This document shows, in pieces, positions 7,224 through 55,690 of a stretch of DNA of 64,000 bases; positions within the stretch are counted from its first letter, which is position 1, and each line of letters starts with the position of its first letter. Origin of the DNA: Saccharibacillus endophyticus (GTDB lineage Bacteria > Bacillota > Bacilli > Paenibacillales > Paenibacillaceae); the NCBI RefSeq assembly GCF_013185185.1, contig NZ_JAAZWE010000001.1, forward strand, positions 496,001 to 560,000. The letters are read 5' to 3'. Both the position numbers and the translations under genes were made by a program. The notes beneath the pieces were generated by a model. The model was not told the origin of the DNA. It was given only the letters and a program-made list of their open reading frames with translations, and searched no databases.

Positions 7224-7311
7224 ATTTTAAAATACTCAAGAACTCAAATCTCTAAACATGATTGAAGTCTTCGAAAAGTAATCAATCATCCGTTATATCT
7301 TAACCTATTGT

Positions 7312-7323
7312 TTAATAAGCTAA
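7312..7323. promoter_or_regulatory. Operator-like site TTAATAAGCTAA
   Basis: Fourth copy of the TTAN-N4-CTAA motif, about 100 bp upstream of the nitroreductase start. With the sites at 6391, 6440 and 6925 it marks a candidate MarR regulon. Confidence 0.5.
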
Positions 7324-7427
7324 GTATTATCTTGGTTTCTTATCTTCTGAAAATACCGACAGCTATCCGTAGAGCCAAAATGAATTTAACAGCCCCAAAT
7401 AAAGTTTTTATTAGAAGGGATAATTCA

Positions 7428-8168: not shown

Positions 8169-8220
8169 AAGGTCATAAGAAAGAAAATTCGATTTACCTC
8201 ATAATACGGGAGATGACGTT

Positions 8221-9225
8221 GTGAACTATTCGGTACTCGATTACGTGCACGTTTTTAAGGGAGAAACCCCTCAACAAGCGCTGGAAAATACAAAAGAAAC
8301 ATTAGCATTAGCGGATTCCTTGAACTATAAACGATACTGGTTTACGGAGCATCACAACGCAACGACCATATTCAGCATGGCTCCCGATTTATTGATGATG
8401 CTCGCCGGTACGTTGACGAAAAAGATGAACGTCGGAGCAGGAGGCATCATGCTGCCCAATTACAGTCCTTATAAAGTGGCGGAAAACTTTGCGCTATTAG
8501 AAGCATCGTTTCCGGGTCGCGTGGATTTGGGCATGGGACGTGCATCCGGAACGGACATCTTGGCAAAAATCGCACTTCAAATGACCAGAGAGAAAATGAT
8601 TGAGGTAGATACGGCTGATCAGATTCAAGAGATTATTTATCATTTAACGAAATCCTTCCCCGAAGGTCATCCCTTCCAAGCGTTAAAAATCGCTGGAGCA
8701 CCGTATAAGCCAAATATGTTTATGCTAGGCTCATCCGCAGGCGGCTTAAGTTTGGCGGCAAAATTCGGTATGAAATTCGCTTTTGCAGGCCAATTAAACC
8801 CGGGGCAAGACGTGCAATTATTGAACCTTTATAAACAACGCTTCGAAGCGCAAGGCCATAAAGAAAAGCCGTACAGCATTTTATCGAAATTCATTTTCGT
8901 GGCAGACACGGAAGAAGAAGCACAACGAGCGGCCTTGCCGGCTGAAATTAGCTGGATGAAAATGTATATGGGCGTAAAATCAGAAGACTTGCGATTAATG
9001 TCGGTTGAAGAAGCGGCCAACTATGAATTTACTCCATATGAACTGGATATCCGTGAACAAAATAAAGGACGCTTTATCATAGGGAATTCCGAGCAAGTCA
9101 AGACGGAAATTCAAGAACTTGAACGCACAGCACATATTGACGAGATTATGATCGCGGATTGGTATGCGGATCAGCGTACGCGATTAAAAGGATATGCGTT
9201 ATTGGCTGAATTGATGAAAGCATAA
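8221..9225 (+). CDS. LLM class flavin-dependent oxidoreductase, MsnO8-like
   Basis: 334 residues of the bacterial luciferase-like TIM-barrel family. The sequence carries YWFTEHHN early on, GAGGIMLPNYSPYKVAE, then GRVDLGMGRASG, all typical of the single-component LLM group often annotated MsnO8. Such enzymes bind FMN or F420 and oxygenate small substrates; the substrate here is unknown. The GTG at 8221 follows GGGAGATGAC. It lies between the nitroreductase and two NtaA-type monooxygenases on the same strand, and is AT-rich like the MarR and nitroreductase genes. Confidence 0.85.
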   Translation: MNYSVLDYVHVFKGETPQQALENTKETLALADSLNYKRYWFTEHHNATTIFSMAPDLLMMLAGTLTKKMNVGAGGIMLPNYSPYKVAENFALLEASFPGRVDLGMGRASGTDILAKIALQMTREKMIEVDTADQIQEIIYHLTKSFPEGHPFQALKIAGAPYKPNMFMLGSSAGGLSLAAKFGMKFAFAGQLNPGQDVQLLNLYKQRFEAQGHKEKPYSILSKFIFVADTEEEAQRAALPAEISWMKMYMGVKSEDLRLMSVEEAANYEFTPYELDIREQNKGRFIIGNSEQVKTEIQELERTAHIDEIMIADWYADQRTRLKGYALLAELMKA

Positions 9226-9279
9226 TGGCTCTAGATACACAATCATCTTAATGATTCGAGTCGGAAAGAAGGCATATCC

Positions 9280-10671
9280 ATGAATAACGTAAAAAAAAGT
9301 GAATCATCCGCAGGCAAGCCGGAAACGAAAAACAAGCATATGATCTTGGGAGCGGTCCTCGGAAACAACTTCGGTTCGCATCCTGCCGCATGGCGGATGC
9401 CGCACGCGGACCTTGGGTCATACACTAATATTGATGCTATCGTGAAACAGGCACGGTCAGCCGAACGGGGAGGAATGCAGTTCCTCTTCCTGCCCGAACG
9501 TCTTTTCCTGCAAGGCGATCTTTCCAAGGCACCGCCTTTGTTCAACATCGATCCGATCATTACCCTTTCGGCCGTGGCTCAGGCAACCGAAAAGATCGGA
9601 CTGATGGGCACGGCGTCCACCTCCTTCACCGAGCCGTACCTGCTGGCCCGCCAATTCAAGGCCCTCGACGTGATCAGCCGCGGACGGGCCGGATGGAATG
9701 CCGTACCGAGCTACGAACCCGTTGCTTTCGCGAATTTCGGCAAGGTTCCGCCTCTCCGGGAGAATAAGTACGAGCGTCTCCACGAAGTGGTGCAGATCGT
9801 CCAGGCGCTGTGGGGAAGCTGGGGATACGAAGCGGGCCGGCCCGACCCGAACGGCATGTTCGCTGACCCGGCCCATATTCGTCCGATCGACCTTCAAGGC
9901 AAGCACGTCGGAGCGCGCGGACCGCTTCCCATCCCTCCGTCCGAGCAGGGACAGCCGGTCATTATGATGCCTGCCAGCAGCGGTTACGGCTTGCAAGCTG
10001 CCGGCATGTACGCCAACGTCGTTGTCGGAATGCCATCGACGATCCAAGAAAGCCGGGCCATCCGTCGGGCTCTGCAAGAAGCTGCCGTACAGGCGGGCCG
10101 AGATCCCGAAGAAATCAAATTCGTTGTATTCGCCGGCTTCACAGTCGGCGAAACGAAGCGGAAAGCCCTCGATGCACGGCGCGCGCTCGACGACAGAACG
10201 GATATCCGAGGACCATTGTCACATCTAGGCGCGTATCTCGGCTTGCGTGAGGAAATCGCTCTCCCTGACGCCCCTCTCACGGCTGCGCAGCTCGCCTCCG
10301 TTCGGGCGAATCCGCAAGACGCACGTTCCATTTTGGCAGTCAAGCTGGCTAAAGCAGGATGGTCGCCCCGTGACATCCTCGCCCATGGGGTGTTCGAGGC
10401 TACACCTACTATAGTCGGCACCGCCGAGGAAGCTGCCGACTACCTTCAGGAATGGTTTGAAGCCGGAGCCGCGGACGGATTCGTGACAAACTTCGACGAC
10501 TTCCACACGGGGATCGACGAATTCGTCGATCGCGTCGTTCCCGTCCTGCGCGAACGCGGCCTTTTTCTCGACGGATATGAGGGGAAAACTCTCCGTGACC
10601 ACTTAAGTCTGCCCGAGCAGTACGGACTAGATCCCCGTATTGCAAATGAATCGACCGGAGGCGCCCTTTGA
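9280..10671 (+). CDS. NtaA/DmoA family FMN-dependent monooxygenase
   Basis: 463 residues, the usual length of the NtaA/SnaA/DmoA/SoxA monooxygenases, which use FMNH2 supplied by a separate reductase to attack C-S or C-N bonds (nitrilotriacetate, dimethylsulfide, dibenzothiophene and similar). Typical motifs: LLARQFKALDVISRGRAGWNAVPS, then ADPAHIRPIDLQGKH, then GQPVIMMPASSGYGLQAA, and the C-terminal GAADGFVTNFDDF. ATG at 9280 with GAAAGAAGG upstream. Its base composition is clearly GC-richer than the genes on both sides, though it shares their direction, so it probably arrived separately. The substrate is unknown. Confidence 0.88.
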   Translation: MNNVKKSESSAGKPETKNKHMILGAVLGNNFGSHPAAWRMPHADLGSYTNIDAIVKQARSAERGGMQFLFLPERLFLQGDLSKAPPLFNIDPIITLSAVAQATEKIGLMGTASTSFTEPYLLARQFKALDVISRGRAGWNAVPSYEPVAFANFGKVPPLRENKYERLHEVVQIVQALWGSWGYEAGRPDPNGMFADPAHIRPIDLQGKHVGARGPLPIPPSEQGQPVIMMPASSGYGLQAAGMYANVVVGMPSTIQESRAIRRALQEAAVQAGRDPEEIKFVVFAGFTVGETKRKALDARRALDDRTDIRGPLSHLGAYLGLREEIALPDAPLTAAQLASVRANPQDARSILAVKLAKAGWSPRDILAHGVFEATPTIVGTAEEAADYLQEWFEAGAADGFVTNFDDFHTGIDEFVDRVVPVLRERGLFLDGYEGKTLRDHLSLPEQYGLDPRIANESTGGAL

Positions 10672-10794
10672 TAGACTGGAAAATTGTCTCTAAAGATTGT
10701 AGATAGTATAGAACGTTTGACACGTTATTGTTTATTTATTTTGAGTCCTATCGGCAAGTAGATACCATATAAAAATAAATTAGGGGGGTTGTTT

Positions 10795-12126
10795 ATGTCC
10801 GAAAAAAAACAAATGCTGCTTGGTTTAGGATTTACGGGGGCATACGGGGCAAGTGCCAAAGCTTGGAAAAGCGAAGGCGTCCATGTGACTACTTATCCAG
10901 ATATTCATGCAGATATTCGCTATGCTCAACTTGCTGAAAAAGGTAAATTTCAATTTCTGTTTGTAGGGGATTTCCCTGGAGCGATACCCGATGATAACAG
11001 GGAAGTGCCATCGATGACGCTTGAACCTATCATTACGGCCACTGCCATATTACAACAAACCAAACACATTGGCGTGGCGTCGACTGTGCACACTCAGTGG
11101 AATAATCCTTTTACGTTAGCACGTCAATTTAAAGGGATAGATTTAATGAGTGGTGGACGTATTGCTTGGAATGCGGTTACGGGATCAAGTCCAAAGGCAG
11201 CAGAGAACTTTGGTGTAAAATTAATGGATAATAGATCACGGTATGAAAGTCATTACGAGTTCGTAGAAACTGTACAGCACTTATGGGCAACATGGGGAAA
11301 AGATGCTCTAAAAGCCGATAAAGAAACCGGTGTCTTTGCGGATTACAGCCAAGTAAAACCTGTTCATATATCCGGTAAACATATACAGGCAAGCGGAGCC
11401 TTGCCCATTCCGCCTTCACCGCAAGGACAACCGGTCATCTTTCACTCTGGTGGATCCCCGAATAGTATAGCGTTTGCAGGACGTTATGCGAGTGCAATGA
11501 TTGGTGAAGTGTGGACGATCGAACAAGGGATTGCTACAAGAAATGCACTACGCCAGGCTGCGATAGACGCGGGTCGAAATCCGGATGAGATTAAATTTAT
11601 CTCAGGACTCATGCCGGTTATTGCCAATTCTAAACGTGAAGCCATAGATCGTCACGCAAGTTTTATGGATGAAAATATCGTAAGACAACGTGCATATCAT
11701 ATCGGAATGATATTAGGAATCAGCTTGACTCCTGAAGATTTGGAACGACCGATCGCACCGGAAGTTTTAGATAAGGTAAAAATCGGCCGTTACTCCGATC
11801 CTCGTACTGAGAATGTTTTAAAAGTGGCGCGTGAAGGTTGGACATTACGCGATGTCATTTATCATTCCGTGATTGATTACCATCCTGCAACATTAGGGGA
11901 TGCAAAAGAAACGGCGGATTACCTAACTGAAGTGTTTGAAAGCGGCGCAGCAGATGGTTTTTGGATACTGCCCGATGCTTATGAAACCGACTTGAAACGT
12001 TTTGTGGAAGAAGTGGTTCCTATTTTACAGGAGCGTGGTATATTCCATGAAGATTATGAGGGAGAGACTTTAAGAGAAAATCTTGGCGTGCCCTATCAGT
12101 ATGGTGTAGATAAACGATTATCTTAA
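10795..12126 (+). CDS. NtaA/DmoA family FMN-dependent monooxygenase (second copy)
   Basis: About 443 residues, same family as the gene at 9280: FTLARQFKGIDLMSGGRIAWNAVTG, FADYSQVKPVHISGKH, GQPVIFHSGGSPNSIAFAG and the GAADGFWILPDAYE end motif. The two differ widely outside these motifs, so they are old paralogues and not a recent duplication. ATG at 10795 with GGGGGG six nt upstream; an in-frame TTG at 10789 is less likely. The gene is AT-rich, unlike its neighbour at 9280. It ends the flavoenzyme block and is followed by a hairpin at 12141. Substrate unknown; sulfur or nitrogen scavenging is plausible. Confidence 0.88.
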   Translation: MSEKKQMLLGLGFTGAYGASAKAWKSEGVHVTTYPDIHADIRYAQLAEKGKFQFLFVGDFPGAIPDDNREVPSMTLEPIITATAILQQTKHIGVASTVHTQWNNPFTLARQFKGIDLMSGGRIAWNAVTGSSPKAAENFGVKLMDNRSRYESHYEFVETVQHLWATWGKDALKADKETGVFADYSQVKPVHISGKHIQASGALPIPPSPQGQPVIFHSGGSPNSIAFAGRYASAMIGEVWTIEQGIATRNALRQAAIDAGRNPDEIKFISGLMPVIANSKREAIDRHASFMDENIVRQRAYHIGMILGISLTPEDLERPIAPEVLDKVKIGRYSDPRTENVLKVAREGWTLRDVIYHSVIDYHPATLGDAKETADYLTEVFESGAADGFWILPDAYETDLKRFVEEVVPILQERGIFHEDYEGETLRENLGVPYQYGVDKRLS

Positions 12127-16607: not shown

Positions 16608-17828
16608 TTGATTTCCGACCTTATCTTTTCGCGTTTTAAAAAAACCGCTCGCGGCGGATCGGCGGATGAACTGTTCGTTTCGAGGCTGCCTGTTATCTTA
16701 TGGATTTGCATGGTGTTCGCGGCGGGACTGATCCTGCAAAATTTTATCCGTTTCGATCTTGTCGGCAGCTTGGCTTTCGGCATAATCACGGCTTTGCATA
16801 TCGACGTGCATTGGCATGCGCATCGTTGGGCCAAATCGCATCCGTGGATGTATTTCATTCTTCAGCATGTTTTGGTCTGGATTGCCGCTTTGTCGGTACC
16901 GCAGGGATACCAGGCCGTCATTATCGGATTTTTCCCTATACTTGCCGCTCAAAGCGTCGCCGCATTCGATTTGAGAAAAAAGGTTGCCGTCGTGCTTTTG
17001 GCCAATGCCGGATCGTTCGTATCGCTTGTATTCGTGCTGGGCCAGCTCCGCGATCTTGCGCTGCTGCTGCCCCTGTTCGGGTTGATGTTGGTCGTCGTTA
17101 TCGCGTACGCCGTGCTTTTTTTCAATCAGGTGCATGCGAGGGTTCGTACGCAGGCTTTTCTGAGCGATCTGGAAAAAGCGCACCGCAAAGTCGAAGAACT
17201 TACGTTGGCTAACGAAAGGCAGCGGATGGCCCGCGATTTGCACGATACGCTCGCGCAAGGCGTTGCCGGCCTCATCATGCAGCTTGAAGCCGCGGAAGCC
17301 TTTTGGATGCAGGGCAACACGGAACGCACCGGAACGATTATCCGGCTGTCGATGAGCCAGGCACGAACCACGCTTGCCGACGCCCGACGGGCGATCGATA
17401 ATTTGCGGGCCAAATCCGCTTCCGACCTTGATTTCCGCGAAGCGGCGGAAGCCGAGATCGAGCGTTTCGTTCAAGCGATCGGCTTGCGCGTTTATACGGA
17501 TATCCAAGTCGCGCGCAGCCCGTCGAGAGTGGCCGCCGAGCATCTGCTGCGGATTCTGAGCGAGTGCCTGACGAACGTGGCCAAGCATGCGCGCGCAGGC
17601 AAGGTCTGGGTCTCTTTGTCCGAACGCGGCGATCTGTTGGATATGGAGATTCGGGATAACGGTGATGGTTTCGATACGAATCAGATCGGCAAGCAAGCCG
17701 GACATTACGGAATATTGGGCATGCAGGAACGGGTGCGGCTGATCGGAGGCAAGCTCAGTGTGTTCAGCGGCAGCGAAGGAACGCGCGTGCAGGTCGAAAT
17801 TCCGTTAAGCAAAGGAGAGAAAGCATGA
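16608..17828 (+). CDS. Sensor histidine kinase, NarL/DesK-type
   Basis: 406 residues. About five hydrophobic segments between residues 25 and 165 make a membrane sensor with almost no extracellular domain. A coiled linker leads to the HisKA_3 dimerisation helix with the phospho-acceptor His212 in ARDLHDTLAQGVAGL, then an HATPase domain with the N box (LLRILSECLTNVAKHA) and G box (IRDNGDGFD). The TTG start at 16608 is supported by AAGGAGG at 16594-16600. It overlaps the response-regulator gene by 4 bp. A sensor buried in the membrane usually responds to envelope stress or membrane-active compounds; the MMPL transporter downstream fits that idea. Confidence 0.9.
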   Translation: MISDLIFSRFKKTARGGSADELFVSRLPVILWICMVFAAGLILQNFIRFDLVGSLAFGIITALHIDVHWHAHRWAKSHPWMYFILQHVLVWIAALSVPQGYQAVIIGFFPILAAQSVAAFDLRKKVAVVLLANAGSFVSLVFVLGQLRDLALLLPLFGLMLVVVIAYAVLFFNQVHARVRTQAFLSDLEKAHRKVEELTLANERQRMARDLHDTLAQGVAGLIMQLEAAEAFWMQGNTERTGTIIRLSMSQARTTLADARRAIDNLRAKSASDLDFREAAEAEIERFVQAIGLRVYTDIQVARSPSRVAAEHLLRILSECLTNVAKHARAGKVWVSLSERGDLLDMEIRDNGDGFDTNQIGKQAGHYGILGMQERVRLIGGKLSVFSGSEGTRVQVEIPLSKGEKA

Positions 17829-18496
17829 GTCAAGCAGAAGAAAACCGGATTTATGCCGTGCTGATCGCGGACGATCATCTGGTGGTGCGGGAAGGATTGA
17901 AGTTGATTCTGGAAACCAATCCCCGGTTCCGTATCGCCGGAGAAGCGGAGAACGGCGAAATCGCGGTAAAGCTGGCCGAAAAAGCGAAGCCGGATGCCAT
18001 ATTGATGGATCTTAACATGCCGATCATGGGCGGGCTTGAAGCGATGAAAGCCATGAACCGCAAAGGTCTCGATATTCCGGTGATCATTTTGACAACCTAT
18101 AATGAAGACGACATGATCGCGGACGGATTGGAGCTCGGCGCCAAAGGGTATCTGCTCAAAGACACCGGCCGCGAGCATCTGTTCCGCACGATCGAGTCCG
18201 CCGTTCGCGGCGAGACGCTGCTTCAAGCGGATATCGTCAGCCGGGCGTTCGCCGCCAGGCAGAAAAGGCAGAGCACGGAACCGGCGATCAAAGCGGAAAG
18301 CGTGTTGAGTCCGAAAGAAGTGCAGACTTTGCAGCTCGTCGCCAAAGGGTACCGAAGCAAAGAGATCGCGTTCGACATGGGCATTTCCGAACGAACGGTC
18401 AAAGCGCATTTGACGAACATCTATAATAAGCTCGGCGTCGATTCCCGGATGCAGGCGATATCGGCTGCGGTGGAGCAGGGGATCGTACATCTTTGA
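17825..18496 (+). CDS. Response regulator, NarL/LuxR family
   Basis: 223 residues. The receiver domain (residues 8-125) shows the acidic pocket IADDH, phospho-acceptor Asp62 in ILMDLNMPIMGG, Thr in ILTTYNE and Lys in YLLKD. The C-terminal LuxR-type helix-turn-helix (about 155-215) reads SPKEVQTLQLVAKGYRSKEI with ERTVKAHLTNIYNKL. Its start overlaps the end of the kinase gene (ATGA), so the two are translationally coupled. Likely targets are its own operon and the MMPL gene, which share a CGAARGTACAA motif upstream. Confidence 0.92.
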   Translation: MSQAEENRIYAVLIADDHLVVREGLKLILETNPRFRIAGEAENGEIAVKLAEKAKPDAILMDLNMPIMGGLEAMKAMNRKGLDIPVIILTTYNEDDMIADGLELGAKGYLLKDTGREHLFRTIESAVRGETLLQADIVSRAFAARQKRQSTEPAIKAESVLSPKEVQTLQLVAKGYRSKEIAFDMGISERTVKAHLTNIYNKLGVDSRMQAISAAVEQGIVHL

Positions 18497-38438: not shown

Positions 38439-39467
38439 TCAATCCCCCAACTCCACCATCGCCTTAATCACCCCAGACTCCGGCTTCAACCAACTTTCAA
38501 ACTCCCCGATCATCTCCGCAAATCCCGCCCGGTGCGTAATATACCGGTCGGTATCGATCATCCCGCCAGCAAGCGCCTCCCGGACCGATGCGAAGTCTTC
38601 CGGCGTCGCATTCCGACTCCCCAGCAGCGTCAACTCGCGGCTATGGAAATGCGGATCATTAAACGTAATATCATCCTTAACCAGACCCACGTACACCAAA
38701 GAACCGCCATGCGCAACGTACCCGAAAGCCTGCTGCATCGACTGCACGCTGCCCGTCGCATCGATCACGATCGGAGCCCCTGCGCCGTCGATGAGTTCAT
38801 CCAACTGCCGCTGTACTTCGCCGCCCGCGATAATCGTATGCTCCACGCCCGCCCATTCCCGGCAAAAGGCCAACCGTTCTTCGTTGATATCCATCGCAAT
38901 GACGCGTGCTCCCGCATAACGCGCCAGCGCCATAATCCCAAGCCCGATCGGTCCCGCTCCCACGACCAACACCGTCTCGCCGCTTCCCTTAACCAACCCC
39001 GAACGGCGAAGTCCGTGTGCACCGATTGCAAGCGGTTCCAACATGGCGGCTTGATCGAGCGTCAGTCCTTTCGTTCCGATCAGATGGCTCACCGGAATCG
39101 AGACGCGCTCCCGCATGCCGCCGTCGATATGAACGCCGAACACCTGCATGTGTTGGCAGCAGTTCGTTTTTCCGATTCGACAAGCCGAGCAGTTTCCGCA
39201 GTGCATGTACGGGATCACGCTCACTGTGTCGCCGGCGCCCAGCCCTTGCTCATTTTCGCCGATTTGCTCAATGACCCCTGCCAACTCATGTCCCAAAATC
39301 CTCGGATAGTTGAAAAAAGGCTGCTTCCCGCGAAACGCATGCAGATCCGTTCCGCAGATTCCGATCCGCCGAATCCGCACGATCGCATGTCCCTTTTCCC
39401 TGATCGGTTCCGGTAAATCTTCGCGCAGCACCAGACGACCTACTTCTTCGCACACGATTCCTTTCAT
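38439..39467 (-). CDS. LgoD-like L-galactonate 5-dehydrogenase (zinc alcohol dehydrogenase)
   Basis: 342 residues of the zinc-dependent medium-chain dehydrogenases. Catalytic zinc motif GICGTDLHAFRG and GHE near 38-62, structural zinc cysteines CGNCSACRIGKTNCC near 90-105, and the NAD loop VVGAGPIGLG. From memory it resembles E. coli LgoD (YjjN) closely in several stretches: GTDLHAFRGKQPFFNYPRIL, IPYMHCGNCSACRIGKTNCC and LLGSRNATPEDFA. LgoD oxidises L-galactonate to D-tagaturonate. ATG at 39467 overlaps the preceding gene by 4 bp. With the two upstream genes it would complete conversion of L-galactose to D-tagaturonate. L-fuconate or another acid is an alternative substrate. Confidence 0.8.
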   Translation of the reverse strand: MKGIVCEEVGRLVLREDLPEPIREKGHAIVRIRRIGICGTDLHAFRGKQPFFNYPRILGHELAGVIEQIGENEQGLGAGDTVSVIPYMHCGNCSACRIGKTNCCQHMQVFGVHIDGGMRERVSIPVSHLIGTKGLTLDQAAMLEPLAIGAHGLRRSGLVKGSGETVLVVGAGPIGLGIMALARYAGARVIAMDINEERLAFCREWAGVEHTIIAGGEVQRQLDELIDGAGAPIVIDATGSVQSMQQAFGYVAHGGSLVYVGLVKDDITFNDPHFHSRELTLLGSRNATPEDFASVREALAGGMIDTDRYITHRAGFAEMIGEFESWLKPESGVIKAMVELGD

Positions 39468-40432
39468 GCCAGGTCCCTGCTTTCGCTCGCCTTTTTCAAA
39501 CCCTGATTATATTCCGGAAGTCCGCTTGGCCAGCTCTTATTATGGATCGGCTTGAGAATCTCCAATACTTCTTCCAATAACGTCTCGTCGATCGTCTCCT
39601 CGATCCACCCTGCATTGCGAATGATATTGGCAGACGAAGCCGTACTCACGAGCGTCGTCGGAATCTGCGCATGGCTCGTCGAATACTGCATAGCCAACTT
39701 CGCGATATCCGTGCCGGCCTTCTCGCAGTGAAGCGCCGCTTGGCGGCACAACGCTTTCACTTCTTCTCCCGCAGGATGCCACGACGAAGGTTCGCGCGTA
39801 CTGAGCAGTCCCATCGCCAGAGGCGAAGCGTTCACCAGCCCCACCCCTTTTTCCTCCAATAAGGGTACCAAATCCAGCAGGGAGTTATCGTTCAGCGCAT
39901 AATGGCAGTACGACAGAATCGCATCGAACTTCATTTGCGGCAGCATCTGCTCGAACAAGGCCAAAGGCAGACCGCTGATCCCGCAAAAACGAATCTTTCC
40001 TTGCTCTTTTAACTGATGCAGAGCCGGAACCGCTTCCTCCAAGATGATCTCCGGCGAAACGAATTCGATATCATGCAAAAACAACATATCCAAGTAATCC
40101 GTCTGAAGACGCTGCAAGCTTTCCTCCACGCTGCTGAAAATCCGTTTCGCCGTAAAATCGAACTCTGCTTCTCCGTAACGCCCGGCTTTCGACGATAACA
40201 GGAACTTGTCTCTCGGAACCTGTGCGATCGCTTGGCCGAGTACCGCCTCCGCGCGCGTCAATCCGTAATAAGGCGACACGTCGATGTAGTTGATGCCGCA
40301 GTCGATCGCCGCATGTACCGTTCGAATGCTTTCCGCGTCGTCCGTTTCCCGGAACACGCCGCCGAGCGAAGAAGCGCCGAAGCTTAAGATTGAGACGTCC
40401 AGACCGGTTTTGCCCAGTTTGCGCGTTTGCAT
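39464..40432 (-). CDS. L-galactose/L-fucose dehydrogenase-like aldo/keto reductase
   Basis: 322 residues of the aldo/keto reductase TIM barrel; the tetrad residues Asp, Tyr (SPYYG), Lys (SSKAGRY) and His (FLHDIEF) are in place. Several stretches closely match plant L-galactose dehydrogenase as I recall it: FGASSLGGVF, LHDIEF, DAILSYCHYALNDNSLLDLV, and GVGLVNASPLAMGLLS followed by WHPA. That enzyme oxidises L-galactose to L-galactono-1,4-lactone with NAD; bacterial relatives also use L-fucose. ATG at 40432 touches the stop of the lactonase gene (TAATG), and its stop overlaps the LgoD-like gene, so three genes are tightly coupled. Confidence 0.82.
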   Translation of the reverse strand: MQTRKLGKTGLDVSILSFGASSLGGVFRETDDAESIRTVHAAIDCGINYIDVSPYYGLTRAEAVLGQAIAQVPRDKFLLSSKAGRYGEAEFDFTAKRIFSSVEESLQRLQTDYLDMLFLHDIEFVSPEIILEEAVPALHQLKEQGKIRFCGISGLPLALFEQMLPQMKFDAILSYCHYALNDNSLLDLVPLLEEKGVGLVNASPLAMGLLSTREPSSWHPAGEEVKALCRQAALHCEKAGTDIAKLAMQYSTSHAQIPTTLVSTASSANIIRNAGWIEETIDETLLEEVLEILKPIHNKSWPSGLPEYNQGLKKASESRDLA

Positions 40433-41298
40433 TATGAAATTCCTCCGTTATCCAAATAAAATGTGTTCGCGTTTTCTCCGAATAGCAAAGCCTTCTCCCG
40501 ATCGGTCCATTCCGCCGGAATCGCATGCAGCAATATATCCATCACCTGATCGTATTCCGCAGCCAACAGGCATACCGGCCAGTCGCTTCCGAACATGACC
40601 CTTTCCGGTCCGAAAGTTTGCAGCACGCGGCGCACATAAGGAACGAAGTCGTCGACACTCCAGCCTGACGGATTCGCTTCGGTCACCATCCCGGAGATTT
40701 TGCAAGATAGACCCGGGTAATCGGCAAAAGCGCTCAAATGATCCGCCCAAGCTTCAAAATGCTTTGGCTCGCCGTGTTTACCGCTTTGCGCAATGGGAGG
40801 CTTGGCGAGGTGATCCACGACCCCTCGCAAATTCGGAACCTTTTCCAACAAACGCAGCGTCACTTCCATCTGAGGCGCCGTCAGCAGCAGATCGATCGGC
40901 ACCTGTTCGTCGGCGTATCCCCGCAGCGCTTCGACGAATGCCGGCTCCAACATGCGCGAAGCGTCGGGCATATCTTGAATCATTAAGCGAAATCCGCGGA
41001 ATTTGGGATTGCGGCGGAATCGTTCGTAATGAAGGCGATGATCACCGTCGAACAAATCGATCCAGCCCACAACCCCGAGAATCGAAGGCGTACGGTCGGC
41101 CAGCGACAAGATATATTCGGTCTCTTCCAGAGTCGGCGCCGCCTGAACAAGGATACTCCCGTCCAAGTTGTGCGCATGCAGCAGAGGTTCCAGGTCGTTC
41201 GGCAAAAAGTCCCGATGCAAAACCGGAAGCTCCGGCGTGATCCATCCGTAATCTCCCCGTTCTATTTTCCAATAATGCTGATGAGCGTCGATACGCAT
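40432..41298 (-). CDS. Amidohydrolase, probable aldonolactonase (COG3618 group)
   Basis: About 288 residues of the amidohydrolase-2 fold. The metal motif DAHQHYW stands at residues 3-9, followed by LPNDLEPLLHAH, the GVVGWIDL strand, GVVDHLAKPPI with a ligand His, and the closing MFGSDWPVCLL with the catalytic Asp. This group includes L-fuconolactonase, L-rhamnono-lactonase and L-galactono-lactonase. I chose the ATG at 41298 because AAAGGGGTG is correctly placed; a TTG at 41319 lies within that site. First gene of the operon, divergent from an AraC gene at 41439. Ring opening of L-galactono-1,4-lactone fits its neighbours. Confidence 0.85.
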   Translation of the reverse strand: MRIDAHQHYWKIERGDYGWITPELPVLHRDFLPNDLEPLLHAHNLDGSILVQAAPTLEETEYILSLADRTPSILGVVGWIDLFDGDHRLHYERFRRNPKFRGFRLMIQDMPDASRMLEPAFVEALRGYADEQVPIDLLLTAPQMEVTLRLLEKVPNLRGVVDHLAKPPIAQSGKHGEPKHFEAWADHLSAFADYPGLSCKISGMVTEANPSGWSVDDFVPYVRRVLQTFGPERVMFGSDWPVCLLAAEYDQVMDILLHAIPAEWTDREKALLFGENANTFYLDNGGIS

Positions 41299-41330
41299 AC
41301 GGCAGTCCACCCCTTTCAACGACTATTGTA

Positions 41331-41417
41331 TCCGACGAAAAAAGGATTGAATATCGTCTTTCCTTGCATATTTATCGCTTTTTTTGATATTTTGTAAGCG
41401 TAATCTATTTTGTCGGA
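41331..41417. promoter_or_regulatory. Inverted repeat between the lactonase operon and AraC
   Basis: TCCGACGAAA (41331-41340) and TTTTGTCGGA (41408-41417) face each other across the divergent promoter region, with a GT-type mismatch. They are candidate AraC half-sites. A weak cre-like TGTAAGCGTAATCT overlaps 41392-41406 with two mismatches. Confidence 0.45.
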
Positions 41418-41438: not shown

Positions 41439-42308
41439 GTGAAGCCTTTGCGTAAACCGTTCGACGGCGATCCTCTTTTCCCGCTTGAACTGTCTTACCG
41501 CACGATGAAAAAGCCGATCGACGAATTGCCGGATCATCTGCATGACCGATATGAGATCGTCTTCGTGCATAGCGGTCAAGGCGTGTTCTTTATCGACGAT
41601 GCTTGGTATGAGAAAAAAGCAGGCGATTTGTTTCTGATTCCCGGCAACACGATCCACCGATCGCTGCCTCATGACGAAGATCCGGTCGTGTCGTCCGTGT
41701 TGTTTTTCGCGCCGCGCCTGCTGCATACGGAGTCCGTAGACGGTGCTTATCATGCGCTGCTCTGCTTCGATCGGGCGCGCAAACATAAAACGTACCGCCT
41801 GGAGCTGCCTGATTCGCTGATCGCCGAAATAGAAGCTTCGTTCAAAGAAATTCATCTGGAACTTGAGCGGCAGCAGCTCGGCAGCCGTGAAGCGGTCAAG
41901 CTGATCGCGAGTACGCTGCTGCTGCGAATCAACCGCCTGATTTACGCGCAGCAGCCGGACCGCGCCGAAGAAACGGCAAGTATTCCGTTTTGGATGAAAG
42001 AAGCATTGCGCGAGATCGACGAGCATCCCGAGCGTTCCAACGGATTGTCTACACTCGCGGCGAGAGCCTGCATCTCTCCGCCGCATTTTTCGCGCGTATT
42101 CAAGCAGTTGACCGCCATGAACGTAACCCAATACGTCAATGCCAAGCGAATCGTACGGGCAAAAGAACTGCTGACCTCTACCGACCGCAGCGTCGCGGAG
42201 ATTGCTCAAAGCTGCGGTTACGAGACGACGGCGCATTTTCATCGGATATTCAAGCGGGTTGCCGGCACGACGCCGAGCGGATATCGGAAAACTGCGCCTC
42301 AACAATAA
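41439..42308 (+). CDS. AraC family transcriptional regulator
   Basis: 289 residues. The cupin sensor at the N-terminus shows DHLHDRYEIVFVHSGQGVFF and KAGDLFLIPGNTIHRS; the C-terminus is the AraC double helix-turn-helix (LAARACISPPHFSRVFKQLT and EIAQSCGYETTAHFHRIFKR). GTG at 41439 with AAAGGAG upstream. It is divergent from the three-gene lactonase/AKR/dehydrogenase operon and is its likely activator, so the inducer may be L-galactose or a related sugar acid. Confidence 0.9.
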   Translation: MKPLRKPFDGDPLFPLELSYRTMKKPIDELPDHLHDRYEIVFVHSGQGVFFIDDAWYEKKAGDLFLIPGNTIHRSLPHDEDPVVSSVLFFAPRLLHTESVDGAYHALLCFDRARKHKTYRLELPDSLIAEIEASFKEIHLELERQQLGSREAVKLIASTLLLRINRLIYAQQPDRAEETASIPFWMKEALREIDEHPERSNGLSTLAARACISPPHFSRVFKQLTAMNVTQYVNAKRIVRAKELLTSTDRSVAEIAQSCGYETTAHFHRIFKRVAGTTPSGYRKTAPQQ

Positions 42309-49748: not shown

Positions 49749-49850
49749 GCCTTATCAATTATAGTTCGTATACATTTAATTTTCTTGCTATAAACATGTC
49801 TATTTTGATCATTTTTATACTTTCATGCTTTTAACTTAGGAGTGATGACC

Positions 49851-52043
49851 ATGAAGAAAAGAATGAAGCTGCATACGCCTTTTTTTCTGAGTTTGACGCT
49901 GATCGCGGTATGCAGCATTCTTGTGCTCTCCGTCGCGATCTTTTTCTGGTACCGGAGCTTAACGATTCAGAACGTCAACAAGGCCAACGAAAGCGTGCTT
50001 TTGAATACGGCCAACGTGTACCGAAATTACAAAGACGTCGCCCAAAACTATACGATGGATTTCTATGCGAACCCGAATATCCACGCGCTCATGATGAGCG
50101 GCGACACCGATTGGAGCGACCAGCTTTACAGCGCTTTAAGCCAGATCAAGGGTGCGCTGATCGTCAATCCTTATTTGGAAAACGCCTATATCTTCGGTAC
50201 CGAAGAACCTGTCGCCATGTTCGAGAATCTTCCGCTCAGCCTGGACTCCAAACAAGAATTGTTTCGTAAAATTCAGGAGAGCCGAATTGTCGAGTCGCCT
50301 TTTCTTTGGACCGCGCAGCGAAATGACGGAAGCGACATTCCGTTGATCGCGGTTTTCTATAATGACCGGGCTTTTGCCAACAGCGCTTATTACGGCGGCG
50401 TCGCGATCACGATCAATCCGGCGGAACTGCAAAAAAATCTGTTCGTGCAGCAGGGCGAAGATTCCACGCATTACCGAATTCTTGACGAGCACGGAAATTT
50501 GTTGATGCATAGCCCCGGAATCTCGGAAATCGACCCCGAAATGGCGCAGCGCATTATCCAAACGGAAGCTTCGGCTGAACACTCTTTCGTTTTCAAAGGC
50601 AATGATGAAGCGAAATTGATTACCTACGTCCACTCGGAAAAAGACGGATTGTGGTTCGTTTCCGAAACCTCTTATACCGACAGCGTGCGCGATATCTCCA
50701 ATGCCCGGAACCTGATGATGCTTCTGTGCCTGGCTCTTACCCTCGTCGCGATCGCGATTGCTTTCTGGATCTCGCGCCGCATGTATCAACCGATCGACCG
50801 GATCTTCGGCAGCATCGTTCATCTGTCGGGCAGCCCTGATTCCCCGCAGAGTCGGGATTACCGGATCGTCAATCGCGAACTGGAAAGCATCGGCGAACGA
50901 ATGGCCCAGCTGCGCAAAGAAAACGACGACAGCGCCGTGCTGCATTGGCTGCTCGCTCCCCGCGATGCCGACGGGAGCGGTACGCCGCAGCGCTTGGCCG
51001 AGTTGGAAGGTTCTTATTGCGTATGCGTATTGTCTGCGGAAAAAGACTGCGACGAGATGTTGGCGCTCATTAAGCTAACGTTCGAAGAGTGGGCCAATCT
51101 CCGGATCTTCCGTCCGCACCGCCATACCGCCGTGCTGATTGTCAGCGAGTTAACGCCGGGATGTTTGGATGATCCCGAAGATTTTCAAAAGCGCTGGAAC
51201 CAAGTCGAACATAGCGCAGACGCAGCGGGGATTCGTTATACGCTCGGCGTCAGCGGGTTGACCGGCCTCGCGGAACAGCTGAAAGACCGCTATGACGAAG
51301 CTTGCGACTGTCGGCGCCACGTGAAATTCCGCAAGCAGCAATCGATCATATTCGCCGAAGGTCTGCTTCCGCTTCATGCAGGGCCGATTCCGGAAAGTCA
51401 TATGGAACCGATTCGGACTGCCGTGCGCAAACGGGACGAAGCGTCGATCAATCAGGCAGTCGGGCAGCTTTTGTCCGTGACCTGCGAGTATCGGGCGGAA
51501 GCCTCGACTGCTTTTCTCGCCAGCCTGGCTTCGGAGCTGAGTCGTATCGGCGCGAAAAAGGCAGAACACTGGGACCTCGATCTGCTCGATCTGTATCCGC
51601 TAATCGATCGGATCGGGAACCACGCCGAATTGCGGGAGTGGCTCGATCATCACTGCCGCGTTGCAAGTGATCGGCTGGATCGGATCGACGGTCTGCAAAC
51701 GCGCAGTCTCGCCGCAGAAGCGGTACGTTATATCGCCGAGCATTACAACGATCCCGAATTGTCGCTCAACGCGCTGGCGGAAAAGCTGTCGATCAGTTCG
51801 GCGTATCTCAGCCGCTTGATCGCGGACGGAACCGGCAGCAATTTCCCGGAACTGGTGAATCTGCATCGTCTGGAACAAGCCCAGCGGCTGTTGATCGGAG
51901 AGCTTGAGCTGGATATTCGCGAGATTGCCGAACAGGTCGGGTACAACAGCAGCACCTATTTTACGACTCAGTTCAAAAAGCGCTACGGCGTCACTCCTTC
52001 CAAATGGAGAATCCACCACGTGCTGGAGCATAAGGAACCGTAA
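49851..52043 (+). CDS. Membrane-bound AraC family regulator (YesS-like)
   Basis: About 730 residues. A first membrane segment (about 10-33: FFLSLTLIAVCSILVLSVAI) and a second (about 285-307: LMMLLCLALTLVAIAIAFWI) enclose an extracellular Cache-like sensor of ~250 residues. A linker with HAMP-like start (RRMYQPIDRIFGSI) leads to a middle domain and the C-terminal AraC helix-turn-helix (EKLSISSAYLSRLIADGTGS and EIAEQVGYNSSTYFTTQFKK). This is the architecture of B. subtilis YesS, regulator of rhamnogalacturonan use. ATG at 49851 is 8 nt from TAGGAG; GTG at 49842 is too close. It precedes the sugar ABC importer, its likely target. Confidence 0.88.
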   Translation: MKKRMKLHTPFFLSLTLIAVCSILVLSVAIFFWYRSLTIQNVNKANESVLLNTANVYRNYKDVAQNYTMDFYANPNIHALMMSGDTDWSDQLYSALSQIKGALIVNPYLENAYIFGTEEPVAMFENLPLSLDSKQELFRKIQESRIVESPFLWTAQRNDGSDIPLIAVFYNDRAFANSAYYGGVAITINPAELQKNLFVQQGEDSTHYRILDEHGNLLMHSPGISEIDPEMAQRIIQTEASAEHSFVFKGNDEAKLITYVHSEKDGLWFVSETSYTDSVRDISNARNLMMLLCLALTLVAIAIAFWISRRMYQPIDRIFGSIVHLSGSPDSPQSRDYRIVNRELESIGERMAQLRKENDDSAVLHWLLAPRDADGSGTPQRLAELEGSYCVCVLSAEKDCDEMLALIKLTFEEWANLRIFRPHRHTAVLIVSELTPGCLDDPEDFQKRWNQVEHSADAAGIRYTLGVSGLTGLAEQLKDRYDEACDCRRHVKFRKQQSIIFAEGLLPLHAGPIPESHMEPIRTAVRKRDEASINQAVGQLLSVTCEYRAEASTAFLASLASELSRIGAKKAEHWDLDLLDLYPLIDRIGNHAELREWLDHHCRVASDRLDRIDGLQTRSLAAEAVRYIAEHYNDPELSLNALAEKLSISSAYLSRLIADGTGSNFPELVNLHRLEQAQRLLIGELELDIREIAEQVGYNSSTYFTTQFKKRYGVTPSKWRIHHVLEHKEP

Positions 52044-52050
52044 TGCTTGC

Positions 52051-52153
52051 TTAAGGCAGCTTAAGTTCAAAAAAATGATGCTTTTTTCGTTTTGTTAAGC
52101 CCTTCTTTTCGCGATTTGTTAAGCTTTATCTCTTTATTTTGATAGCGCTTACA
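52051..52153 (+). promoter_or_regulatory. ABC importer control region: direct repeats and a perfect cre box
   Basis: TTTGTTAAGC occurs at 52091-52100 and 52115-52124, 24 bp apart, and GCTTAAG occurs twice just after the regulator stop around 52050; such repeats resemble AraC operators. TGATAGCGCTTACA (52140-52153) fits the CcpA cre consensus at every position. The importer genes start at 52224, so catabolite repression and activation by the upstream AraC sensor are both likely. Confidence 0.75.
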
Positions 52154-52223
52154 TATTTCCCGGGCTTATGCTGATGGCGTTACGAATCCAACACGTCAAA
52201 ACGAAAAAAGGAGTGGAACGTCG

Positions 52224-53204
52224 ATGGTGCAACAAGCTACGCCGCGCGAAACGAACGAGCGTCTCGCCAAGCGTCAGGCTGTAAGCTTCGGTCGGCTGCG
52301 AAAGTCGATCGGAAGAGATGCTCCCTTATACTTGCTGGCGCTGCCGGGAATCGCGGTTCTGATCCTCTTCGCCTACCTGCCGATGAGCGGGCTGATCCTC
52401 GTATTCAAGAACTACAACTTCAATGACGGCATCTTCGGCAGTCCCTGGGCGGGATTCGCCAACTTCGAGTTCTTTTTCTCCAGCATGGAAGATGCGATTC
52501 GGGCAACGCGCAACACCGTCATGCTGAATGTGCTGTACATGTTGACCGGTACCTTTTTCTCCGTGGCGATCGCTATTGTATTGAATGAAATACGCAGCAA
52601 ATGGTTCGTCAAAATCACGCAAAGCGTCATGTTCTTTCCCTACTTCATTTCGTGGATCATCATCGGAGCGATTCTGTTCTCCCTGCTGGACTACGATAAA
52701 GGCATCCTGAACCAATCGCTCGCCGCTTTGGGCTTAAGTCAGGTGGATTGGTATTCGAGTCCGTGGCTGTTCGTCGTCATTTTGGTGCTGGCGAACATCT
52801 GGAAAAGTGCCGGATACGGCGCGATCATCTATTATGCGGTGCTTCAGGGGATTGACACCTCCTACTATGAAGCGGCCCGGATCGACGGTGCTTCGAGGTG
52901 GCAGATCATCATGCGGATCACGCTGCCGATGCTGATCCCGTCGATCATCCTGATGAGCCTGCTCAGTATCGGCGGGATGCTCAAAGGCGATCTCAGCATG
53001 ATCATGGGCGTCACTTTCCTGAATCCTTTGCTGCTGCCGACCACCGATATCATCGACGTGTACGTCTACCGTACCGCGATCCGTTCCGGCGAGTTCGGAT
53101 TCGCGTCGGCGATTACGTTGTATCAGTCCGTGTTCGGCTTCATTCTGGTGCTGGTCGCCAACAAAATGGCCGGCTGGTACGACAAAGACAGCAAACTCTT
53201 CTAG
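52224..53204 (+). CDS. lplB: Sugar ABC transporter permease, LplB-like
   Basis: 326 residues with about six membrane segments. N-terminal cytoplasmic part, then LYLLALPGIAVLILFAYLPM, GLILVFKNYNFNDGIFGSPW, and the cytoplasmic EAA loop YYEAARIDGASRWQIIMRIT that docks on the ATPase. These permeases (LplB, YtcP, YesP) serve import of polygalacturonate, rhamnogalacturonan or aldotetrauronic oligomers in Bacilli. ATG at 52224 follows AAAAGGAG. It is the first gene of a three-gene importer without an ATPase; family members use the shared ATPase MsmX encoded elsewhere. Confidence 0.9.
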   Translation: MVQQATPRETNERLAKRQAVSFGRLRKSIGRDAPLYLLALPGIAVLILFAYLPMSGLILVFKNYNFNDGIFGSPWAGFANFEFFFSSMEDAIRATRNTVMLNVLYMLTGTFFSVAIAIVLNEIRSKWFVKITQSVMFFPYFISWIIIGAILFSLLDYDKGILNQSLAALGLSQVDWYSSPWLFVVILVLANIWKSAGYGAIIYYAVLQGIDTSYYEAARIDGASRWQIIMRITLPMLIPSIILMSLLSIGGMLKGDLSMIMGVTFLNPLLLPTTDIIDVYVYRTAIRSGEFGFASAITLYQSVFGFILVLVANKMAGWYDKDSKLF

Positions 53205-53216
53205 GAGGTGAAAAGC

Positions 53217-54101
53217 ATGTCCAAGGCTGAAAACAAAGGCTTATTGATCTTTTTCTACATCTGCATCGCCGTCTTTTCTGTCATTTGCTTCGCCCCGTTC
53301 GTGCTGGCGGTCTCCGGTTCGTTATCGACGGAGTCTCGGATAGCGGCGGAAGGGTATTCGTTCTGGCCGCGCGGCTTTTCGCTGGAGACGTATCAGTTTT
53401 TGTTCGGCTCCAAACTGGAACAGATCGTTCGCGCCTATGCCGTGTCGTTGACCGTGACGGTGCTGGGCACGGTGTCGGCGGTTCTGGTCACGACGGCGTA
53501 CGCCTATGTGGTTTCCGTCAAAAGTTTCCGCTTCCGCAACGTCTTTGCCTTTTTCGCCTACTTCACCATGCTGTTCAGCGGCGGCACGCTCCCTTGGTAT
53601 CTGCTCAGCACGAAATACTATCATCTCGACGACAAGCTCATCGGCCTGATCGCCCCTTACCTGCTGAGCGTGTTCCTGATGTTCCTGATGACCAACTATT
53701 TCCGCAGCATTCCGCACGAGATCGTGGAATCGGCGCAGATCGACGGAGCCGGACATCTGCGTATTTTCATCCGGATCATGCTGCCGCTCGGGCGGGTCGG
53801 GGTGGTCACCATTTCCCTGTTCTACGCGCTGCAATATTGGAACGACTTCTACCTGCCGCTGATGCTGGTCACCGACGAACGGCTGTACACGATCCAATAC
53901 CTCATGTACACCATGATGGCCAATATCCAGTTTCTCGCGTCCGGCAATGCCGCGCAGGTCGGAGGAGCGATCATCGCCCCGCCGCTTGAAACCGCCAAAA
54001 TGGCGATGACTTGTCTGACCGTGCTGCCGATCGCGATTTTGTACCCGTTTTTGCAAGGCTTTTTCGTAAAAGGAATCGTGGTCGGCTCGGTCAAAGGTTG
54101 A
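53217..54101 (+). CDS. Sugar ABC transporter permease, LplC/YtcP-like
   Basis: 294 residues with six membrane segments: IFFYICIAVFSVICFAPFVL at the N-terminus, SLTVTVLGTVSAVLVTTAYA, FAYFTMLFSGGTLPWYLLST, the EAA loop IVESAQIDGAGHLRIFIRIM, and a C-terminal FLQGFFVKGIVVGSVKG. It pairs with the LplB-like permease to form the membrane channel. ATG at 53217 is 8 nt from AGGAGG; a GTG at 53208 lies inside that site. Co-transcribed with both neighbours. Confidence 0.9.
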   Translation: MSKAENKGLLIFFYICIAVFSVICFAPFVLAVSGSLSTESRIAAEGYSFWPRGFSLETYQFLFGSKLEQIVRAYAVSLTVTVLGTVSAVLVTTAYAYVVSVKSFRFRNVFAFFAYFTMLFSGGTLPWYLLSTKYYHLDDKLIGLIAPYLLSVFLMFLMTNYFRSIPHEIVESAQIDGAGHLRIFIRIMLPLGRVGVVTISLFYALQYWNDFYLPLMLVTDERLYTIQYLMYTMMANIQFLASGNAAQVGGAIIAPPLETAKMAMTCLTVLPIAILYPFLQGFFVKGIVVGSVKG

Positions 54102-54163
54102 TCGTACCGCTATAAGGGCAAAGCGCTTGAATCTTCGACTACATGAGGGAGGTTGGTTCATTT

Positions 54164-55690
54164 ATGTTCGGAAAAAAAGGATGGCTCGGTTTGCTTATGA
54201 CTGCGGTTCTGCTGCTTGGTGCGTGTTCGCAAGGCGGAGGCGCAACGACGACCGGCACAGGCGGCAGCGACGCAAATTCCACGGATGCGTCCGGTAACGA
54301 AGCAAGCGGCGAGTTGGCTCCGGCCAAGCTCAAGATCGTGCTGTACGGAGACGAGTCTAACCGGATGAAGGAATTGGCGAAGACGGAGTTTTACGACCGC
54401 ATCAAGCAGGAAATCAACGCCGAAGTCGAATTCCAATTCCTGCCGTGGACGGAATATGCGGGCGGCAAGACGGATCTGATGCTCTCCACAGGCGAAGACT
54501 TCGCGACGTACACCGACGCCAACTACATGGTCAAATCGGTCGCCAAAGGCCTGTACGCGGATCTCACCCCCTATACGGAAGCTTCCGACGATCTGAGCCG
54601 AACGGTAGACGAAGCTTCGTTCAAAGCCTTCCAATTGAGCGGAAAACAGTATGCGATTCCGGTCGGCAACAAACCCAATTCCGCCGAGTTTTACAGCGTG
54701 CTCGTCCGTCAGGACCTGCTGGAAGAAGTCGGCATGAGCGAAGTGACTTCGCTTGCGCAGCTGGAGGAATACTACGATAAAGCCCATGCTGCCCATCCCG
54801 AGCTGATCGGTTACGCCGGAGTCGATGCTCGCCGGATGCTGCTGTACGATTACACGGACAAAAACCTGTATTGGCAAAACGATTTTGTCGCATTGGACGA
54901 ATCGGCGCAGGACGATCGGATCATCAATTGGTTCGAGTCCGAAGAATTCAAAAAATATGCAGGCCTGATGCGCGGCTGGTACGAAAAAGGCATCATCCCG
55001 AAATACGCCGCCACCAACGTCCCGCAGTTGCAATCCGACTGGAATTCCGGCAAAGCGATGTTCTGGGCCGGTACGGCGGCGCGTCCTTTCGAAGGCGCGG
55101 CGACCATCTCCCAAGCCGTGCCGGACGCCAAGCTGGTCAACTACTTCCTCGGCGAAGGCCGTCCGAAGATCAGCCGTGGCACGTATAGCACCGCGTTCTT
55201 CGTCTCTTCGGCCGCGAAAGATCCGGAACGTTACGTGATGTTCTTCAATCTGCTGCAAAAAGATCAAGAACTTTACGACCTGTTCGCCTACGGCATCGAA
55301 GGCACGGATTATACGCTGGACGAGAACGATCGGATCACCCGCCTGACGACGGATTCGTTGATTCCCGACTGGCTGCTCATGAACAAAAACTTTATCCGTT
55401 TCGACAACAGCGTGCCGGACGATTTTATTGCCGAATACAAAGCTTGGGACGACGGCGCGGTCATTTCGAAAGGCGCAGGCTTTAACTTCGACAACACCCC
55501 GGTCAAAAACGAAGAAACCAAGCTGAACGGCGTATTGACCGAATACCTGGCTCCGATCGGCAGCGGCTTCGTCGATTACGAGACGGGATATCCGAAAGCG
55601 CTGGAACGACTTAAAGCCGCAGGGATCGACAAGTATATCGCGGAATATCAAAAGCAATTTTCGGCGTGGCATGCGGAGCAGAATCAGTAG
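54164..55690 (+). CDS. Extracellular solute-binding lipoprotein of the sugar importer
   Basis: About 508 residues. The N-terminus is a lipoprotein signal: Lys-Lys, a hydrophobic core (GWLGLLMTAVLLL) and the lipobox LGAC, then a Gly/Thr/Ser-rich linker. The mature part is a two-lobed binding protein of the LplA/YtcQ type (AKLKIVLYGDE start, FLPWTEYAGGKTDLMLSTGE, AIPVGNKPNSAEFYSVLVRQ). It binds oligosaccharides outside the cell and hands them to the LplB/LplC-like permeases. ATG at 54164 follows GAGGGAGG; an ATG at 54143 lies upstream of that site. Last gene of the importer operon. Confidence 0.9.
   Translation: MFGKKGWLGLLMTAVLLLGACSQGGGATTTGTGGSDANSTDASGNEASGELAPAKLKIVLYGDESNRMKELAKTEFYDRIKQEINAEVEFQFLPWTEYAGGKTDLMLSTGEDFATYTDANYMVKSVAKGLYADLTPYTEASDDLSRTVDEASFKAFQLSGKQYAIPVGNKPNSAEFYSVLVRQDLLEEVGMSEVTSLAQLEEYYDKAHAAHPELIGYAGVDARRMLLYDYTDKNLYWQNDFVALDESAQDDRIINWFESEEFKKYAGLMRGWYEKGIIPKYAATNVPQLQSDWNSGKAMFWAGTAARPFEGAATISQAVPDAKLVNYFLGEGRPKISRGTYSTAFFVSSAAKDPERYVMFFNLLQKDQELYDLFAYGIEGTDYTLDENDRITRLTTDSLIPDWLLMNKNFIRFDNSVPDDFIAEYKAWDDGAVISKGAGFNFDNTPVKNEETKLNGVLTEYLAPIGSGFVDYETGYPKALERLKAAGIDKYIAEYQKQFSAWHAEQNQ

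Follow-up and report, generated by a model that had tools for sequence, protein, structure and literature searches.

A three-gene operon predicted to convert L-galactose into D-tagaturonate in Saccharibacillus endophyticus and its relatives

Which sugar is consumed by a compact three-gene operon that Saccharibacillus endophyticus carries among genes for the degradation of plant glycans? The operon resides in a stretch of 64,000 nucleotides (contig NZ_JAAZWE010000001.1 of GCF_013185185.1, positions 496,001-560,000), referred to here as the window, and its genes bear the generic names aldo/keto reductase (AKR), amidohydrolase and zinc-binding alcohol dehydrogenase. Judged from homology and gene context, the operon very probably directs the catabolism of L-galactose, an uncommon mirror-image sugar present in plant cell walls, via its lactone and L-galactonate to D-tagaturonate, which would feed the galacturonate route. 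Each of the three generically named genes thereby gains a function that can be tested.

The minus strand carries three intact open reading frames (ORFs) in tandem: the amidohydrolase (listed at 40432-41319) comes first, followed by the AKR (39464-40432, 322 aa, a predicted L-galactose 1-dehydrogenase) and an LgoD-like zinc alcohol dehydrogenase (ZnDH; 38439-39467, 342 aa, a predicted L-galactonate 5-dehydrogenase). Neighbouring genes overlap by 1 nucleotide at the amidohydrolase/AKR junction (TAATG) and by 4 nucleotides at the AKR/ZnDH junction (ATGA). The listed start of the amidohydrolase is a TTG at 41319. An ATG at 41298 is preceded by a purine-rich stretch (AAAGGGGTGG) and is therefore the likely start, which would yield a predicted L-galactono-1,5-lactonase of 288 aa (40432-41298) and an operon that likely extends from 38439 to 41298. 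A preliminary description of this DNA had already recognized the overlapping three-gene operon, and its gene content stands, but the span it gave ended at 41417, which falls in the intergenic region beyond the likely start.

In the proposed pathway, the AKR would oxidize L-galactose at C1 to produce L-galactono-1,5-lactone, the amidohydrolase would open this lactone to yield L-galactonate, and the ZnDH would oxidize C5 of L-galactonate to form D-tagaturonate. Enzymes encoded by uxaB and uxaA elsewhere in the genome would then reduce D-tagaturonate to D-altronate and dehydrate the latter to 2-keto-3-deoxygluconate (KDG). After phosphorylation of KDG, a 2-keto-3-deoxy-6-phosphogluconate (KDPG) aldolase, also encoded elsewhere, would catalyse cleavage to pyruvate and glyceraldehyde-3-phosphate. 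We infer the substrates, stereochemistry and cofactors of these steps, as well as the inducer and the polysaccharide source. The genes themselves are present: the AKR and the predicted C5 dehydrogenase are encoded together, and the genome encodes a tagaturonate reductase, a predicted altronate dehydratase and a KDPG aldolase, with KDG kinase outside the search. A LacI gene is followed by uxaB, uxaA and uxaC in one cluster (C10:820.8-826.3 kb). Their products UxaB and UxaC score above the respective cut-offs, as does a single KDPG aldolase; UxaA is assigned from its Pfam family and neighbours.

A sequence search of the Protein Data Bank (PDB) with the AKR returned, as its top five distinct chains, proteins that are all named L-galactose dehydrogenase (289-337 bits), whereas the next chain scored 124 bits. 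The predicted structure, built from 21 sequences with a mean pLDDT of 87.9, matches the L-galactose dehydrogenase of Luteolibacter LG18 in complex with L-galactose and NADP+ (9w6y) with a Z score of 45.4 and a root-mean-square deviation of 1.3 over 307 residues, and the two proteins are 53% identical. Identities to further L-galactose dehydrogenases are 48-49% for the enzymes of spinach, Myrciaria and rice and 44% for that of Bacteroides plebeius, and the next structure match after this group, an arabinose dehydrogenase of Candida auris, is only 28% identical. It is this gap in identity (44-53% versus 28%), and not the fold, that would carry the assignment, as a common fold by itself proves nothing. 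The resemblance to plant L-galactose dehydrogenase noted at the outset is borne out, with the Luteolibacter enzyme closer still. AKR proteins employ an Asp-Tyr-Lys-His catalytic tetrad, and the corresponding residues (D51, Y56, K82 and H120) are present and invariant across 16 aligned sequences.

AKR proteins and zinc alcohol dehydrogenases (ADHs) belong to large, promiscuous families, and the S. endophyticus genome yields 25 matches to the operon AKR, including itself. The three genes might accordingly form an unrelated module for aldose or polyol oxidation, for example of D-arabinose, in which a broad AKR is combined with a sorbitol-type dehydrogenase. We consider this very unlikely. The operon AKR stands isolated in its own genome (711 bits to itself, 97 bits for the runner-up) and is distant from the arabinose dehydrogenase mentioned above, and the uxaA, uxaB and GH95 genes that recur beside its relatives do not fit such a module.

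The nearest characterized relative raises the prospect of a second sugar. We take 9w6y to be LguA of Luteolibacter LG18, although the PDB sequence and the printed N-terminus differ at one residue. Extracts of PMC12632266 report that LguA and LguD act on both L-galactose and L-glucose and on both of the resulting acids, and an AKR that is 53% identical could in principle support the same dual pathway in S. endophyticus. However, the same extracts report that LguA prefers L-galactose 40-fold in kcat/Km, that L-glucose use requires the C-4 epimerase LguG, a protein outside our genome searches, and that the authors presume L-glucose to be absent from natural environments. A dual function of this type is extremely unlikely.

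For the last enzyme of the operon, the closer of the two Escherichia coli proteins compared is LgoD, with 41% identity over 340 aa, three gap positions and 267 bits, versus 34% identity and 162 bits for RspB. In the reverse search, LgoD identifies the ZnDH as its clear best match in the S. endophyticus genome (291.5 bits; runner-up 138.4 bits), which upholds its initial description as LgoD-like. Cysteines are found at residues 38, 90, 93, 96 and 103/104, together with a GHE motif at residues 59-61. None of the 22 NCBIfam hits of the ZnDH comes from a model named LgoD. The LgoD match, the AKR identity to an enzyme solved with L-galactose and the uxaB- and uxaA-like genes in operons of relatives all argue for the pathway as it was originally proposed.

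The amidohydrolase, which we take to be of the COG3618 type, matches PF04909 (Amidohydro_2) with 148.7 bits. Proteins of the COG3618-type Amidohydrolase_2 group carry the metal-binding motifs HQH, HLAK and GSD, all of which are present. Its best solved relative is 4dlf (153 bits), its counterpart in Catenovulum is 40% identical, and the S. endophyticus genome contains no second match to it at E <= 0.001. The sole NCBIfam model that it matches is L-fucono-1,5-lactonase, and it was not filed as an L-fuconolactonase because its 238.9 bits fall under the equivalog cut-off of 400 bits.

This match nevertheless calls attention to L-fucose, which is 6-deoxy-L-galactose and has the same C2-C4 configuration as L-galactose (extract of PMC12370193). 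The operon could serve L-fucose, instead of or besides L-galactose, via L-fuconolactone and L-fuconate. GH95 enzymes can release either sugar, and the alternative is kept alive because a 2019 paper describes enzymes of the altronate-dehydratase family, which has one gene in this genome, as promiscuous in its title. Even so, we view a role in L-fucose use as unlikely. The extracts of PMC12632266 describe LguA, the closest characterized AKR, as favouring L-galactose and inactive on L-fucose. Furthermore, the alternative is weakened because the S. endophyticus genome has a separate L-fucose isomerase cluster, composed of a DeoR regulator, FucI, an FGGY kinase and a class II aldolase, in which FucI scores above both equivalog cut-offs; a second FucI is also encoded in the genome. 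Operons of relatives include tagaturonate-reductase-like and altronate-dehydratase-like genes, which likewise speaks against L-fucose. The preliminary description had argued that the dehydratase needed for an L-fucose route is absent, and this holds for MR/MLE-type enzymes, none of which exceeds the Pfam cut-off in the genome, but the argument is weaker for dehydratases at large: IlvD/EDD-type enzymes lay outside that search, and the altronate-dehydratase-family gene is present.

To what extent does the gene grouping recur in relatives? From 367 relatives found, the best 80 were retained as named loci, of which 62 exceed 16 kb and the remainder end at contig ends. Partner genes were called by tblastn with fixed identity thresholds if they lie on the same strand within 5 kb of the AKR gene. 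By this measure the ZnDH gene is present in 72/80 loci, the lactonase gene in 60/80 and both in 57/80, and the grouping is therefore not due to chance. Genes for uxaB (25/80) and uxaA (23/80) are also found, and 20 loci carry ZnDH, lactonase, uxaB and uxaA genes, such that the operon would encode the whole route from L-galactose to KDG. A representative operon-borne UxaB belongs to the mannitol-dehydrogenase family and scores 555 bits with the tagaturonate-reductase model (cut-off 359), and a representative UxaA belongs to the D-galactarate/altronate dehydratase family while remaining under the galactarate-dehydratase cut-off. Members of GH95, the alpha-L-fucosidase/alpha-L-galactosidase family, occur within 8 kb on either strand in 17/80 loci, as at L073:10009-12384 in Paenibacillus sp. 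HW567, and 61/80 loci have an AraC homologue (>=38% identity) no more than 6 kb away on the other strand. A second AKR arrangement was observed in Saccharibacillus genome G007 (locus L046, 4495-8707): a 52% identical AKR comes behind genes grouping with uxaB and uxaA, and the named matches in its surroundings include neither a lactonase nor a ZnDH.

Such a compact operon was at first thought to be unfamiliar in Paenibacillaceae, an impression that these counts and a wider survey overturn. With a presence threshold of E <= 1e-60, the AKR is found in 169 of 295 Paenibacillaceae genomes (S. endophyticus included), and the only 6 genomes with it among 398 sampled across the phylum Bacillota are also Paenibacillaceae. 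Three of the 80 named loci belong to Bacillaceae (Aquibacillus, Neobacillus and Gracilibacillus). The lactonase (E <= 1e-55) is found in 182 of the 295 genomes; both proteins occur in 154 and neither in 98. When the lactonase threshold is tightened to 1e-95, both are found in 113 genomes, the AKR alone in 56, the lactonase alone in 9 and neither in 117. Fisher's test on this co-occurrence ignores the relatedness of the genomes. A literature search, judged by titles and the beginnings of abstracts, returned no description of the operon in Paenibacillaceae. If the function is confirmed, L-galactose use would be common in the family, as the AKR occurs in over half of the genomes examined.

Several observations, among them the score of the amidohydrolase under the L-fucono-1,5-lactonase cut-off, weigh against assigning the operon to L-galactose. 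The ZnDH falls below every curated NCBIfam cut-off, with PRK10083 the nearest (192.4 versus 376 bits), and the amidohydrolase is 25% identical to its Bacteroides finegoldii counterpart over 149 aa only. At the looser lactonase threshold, 15 of the 169 genomes with the AKR lack the lactonase and 28 genomes have the lactonase without the AKR; among 16 Saccharibacillus genomes, the AKR is present in 13 and the lactonase in only 7. Five of the 80 loci have neither partner near the AKR gene, two of them with truncated flanks (L098 and L124), and in 15/80 the ZnDH gene is present with the lactonase gene missing nearby. Six of these 15 (L091, L093, L101, L108, L110 and L135, all from Paenibacillus around P. 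amylolyticus) have a common set of neighbouring genes whose content does not suggest sugar catabolism. These neighbours were typed only in locus L051, which has the same layout as the six; they include a Cys/Met pyridoxal phosphate (PLP) enzyme and a radical S-adenosylmethionine (SAM) CofH/MqnC-like protein. Finally, no GH95 gene was found in the window; the two in the genome lie elsewhere, one of them beside a GH31 gene.

The chemistry proposed for S. endophyticus is already known from other bacteria. An L-galactose pathway with D-tagaturonate as an intermediate was described in 2014 for Bacteroides (Phocaeicola) vulgatus (BVU_0219/0222; cited in the extracts of PMC12632266). It has the enzyme types and the D-tagaturonate intermediate proposed for the window, with the BVU sequences outside our comparison. 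Hobbs et al. 2014 reportedly covered the lactonase step and BVU_0220 in B. vulgatus. In the likely counterpart from B. finegoldii, genes for an AKR, an amidohydrolase, FucP and a zinc ADH lie in a row, and the AKR is 46% identical to that of the window. The Bacteroides arrangement differs in its gene order, in having a LacI regulator rather than AraC and in the FucP gene that stands between the others, and the ZnDH of the window resembles LgoD more closely than it does the B. finegoldii enzyme (33%).

The lguABCDEF genes of Luteolibacter sp. LG18, reported in 2025 to encode an L-galactose route (extracts of PMC12632266), resemble the window in their divergent gene for a helix-turn-helix (HTH) activator as well as in the AKR, and, like 23/80 relatives of the window, the cluster holds tagaturonate reductase and altronate dehydratase genes. 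Unlike the window, the lgu genes named in those extracts include no lactonase, and the lactonase may for this reason be dispensable for the pathway. LguD is also reported there to be only remotely related to LgoD and BVU_0222, whereas the zinc enzyme of the window is LgoD-like. Within the 15 kb inspected around the E. coli lgoT-lgoR-lgoD genes, none of the annotated neighbours is an AKR or lactonase gene. In Acidovorax avenae, Watanabe et al. 2019 reportedly described conversion of L-galactonate to D-altronate by two dehydrogenases. With its sequences outside our comparison, that system would follow the same logic as the operons with the order LAC-UxaB-UxaA-AKR-ZnDH, in which LAC denotes the lactonase; a difference is its reported overlap with an L-fucose route.

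Searching a plasmid collection with the AKR (E <= 1e-40) yielded four records, all with a zinc ADH gene nearby and three with an amidohydrolase gene; one of them is the B. finegoldii locus described above. A plasmid of P. cellulositrophicus carries LAC-AKR-ZnDH, then a regulator, an ABC transporter and GH95, and an Acidisarcina plasmid carries genes for a zinc ADH, FucP, an AKR and a tagaturonate epimerase. On a Catenovulum plasmid, zinc ADH, amidohydrolase and AKR genes are joined by mannitol-dehydrogenase-family and altronate-dehydratase genes; the first of these encodes a protein that shares only 26% identity with the UxaB proteins used for comparison, a further point against the proposed route. 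The ZnDH of the window is 50% identical to the Catenovulum enzyme and 37% identical to that of Acidisarcina. In a phylogenetic tree, the Bacteroides and Acidisarcina enzymes group with full support apart from the others, but the tree is poorly resolved, with long branches for RspB and LgoD and most forks open, and identities were relied on instead.

These identities suggest that the Paenibacillaceae version is partly a mosaic, assembled from other branches of the same enzyme families than the Bacteroides version, with which the poorly resolved ZnDH tree agrees. We tentatively propose, with the balance tilted slightly against it, that Paenibacillaceae possess their own family-wide L-galactose system, in which the shared AKR is combined with a C5 dehydrogenase of the LgoD type and a lactonase of a distinct kind, and in which a single cassette, in its full form (LAC-UxaB-UxaA-AKR-ZnDH-GH95), takes L-galactose from a plant glycan to KDG. 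If true, Gram-positive bacteria that live in soil or in association with plants would consume L-galactose routinely. The advance over the B. vulgatus and Luteolibacter pathways is modest: it lies in the choice of family branches and in the breadth of the operon's distribution. Confirmation would mean that one pathway has been built from partly different enzyme-family branches in different phyla.

From which polysaccharide might the L-galactose derive? The preliminary description placed the operon in a pectin locus and favoured rhamnogalacturonan-II as the source. Plant-glycan genes (GH105, pectinesterase, GH28, GH43 and GH78) do flank the operon, and in S. sacchari, whose AKR is 89% identical, the gene order is the same, with GH28, pectinesterase and GH105 genes preceding the three. 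However, pectin genes, taken as GH28, GH105 or pectinesterase at >= 30% identity, were seen in the flanks of only 5/80 relatives, two of which are the nearest Saccharibacillus relatives, and the pectin setting is therefore not general. Corn xylan also carries L-galactose, which a GH95 enzyme frees (extract of PMC4491172), and rhamnogalacturonan-II is only one possible source.

GH95 L-galactosidases number two according to the extract of a 2023 review (PMC10154630), and the GH95 genes next to the operon in relatives would become candidates for this activity if the pathway is confirmed. The identity of the residue (Thr or His) at the GH95 -1 subsite was considered as a means to tell L-galactose release from L-fucose release and was rejected, as a Xanthomonas enzyme with Thr is L-fucose-specific (extract of PMC8245568). 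In locus L163, on the plasmid of the alga-associated Catenovulum adriaticum, the enzyme set lies near arylsulfatase genes. Red-algal porphyran contains L-galactose-6-sulfate (extract of PMC12316285), and the arylsulfatases would fit this sugar as the source there.

A divergent gene on the plus strand (41439-42308) encodes an AraC-type protein with a cupin domain (PF02311) and HTH_18 (PF12833), which probably controls the operon. In the gap between the two, a block of ~59 bases (41345-41403, no strand assigned) is nearly identical in a MAFFT alignment of the window, S. sacchari and Saccharibacillus sp. JS10, and is a candidate promoter/operator. No direct repeat of the AraC-operator type was found in the intergenic region of the window, and sigma-70-like sites (3 versus 3.2 in shuffles) and terminator-like sites (2 versus 5.5) show no excess. 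A cre site at 41392-41406 was discarded as a catabolite control element: its consensus matches the window five times versus 1.54 expected, and 3/100 shuffles reach five.

Beyond the operon, window positions 49842-55690 are probably a sugar ABC transporter region adjoining the GH43 gene, with an AraC-type regulator (weak dCache match), two ABC permeases and a DUF3502 protein. Its transporter (52224-55690) was set aside as a candidate L-galactose importer; the permeases are ~34-35% identical to the neighbours of the P. cellulositrophicus operon, the binding protein has no match at 1e-8 to the one encoded there, and the two systems are not obvious orthologues. Two neighbouring minus-strand ORFs at 16698-18490 (335 and 261 aa), which overlap by a single base, are without a Pfam match and may not be genes. 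At 7308-12126, a nitroreductase-family gene is followed by three consecutive genes for luciferase-like monooxygenases.

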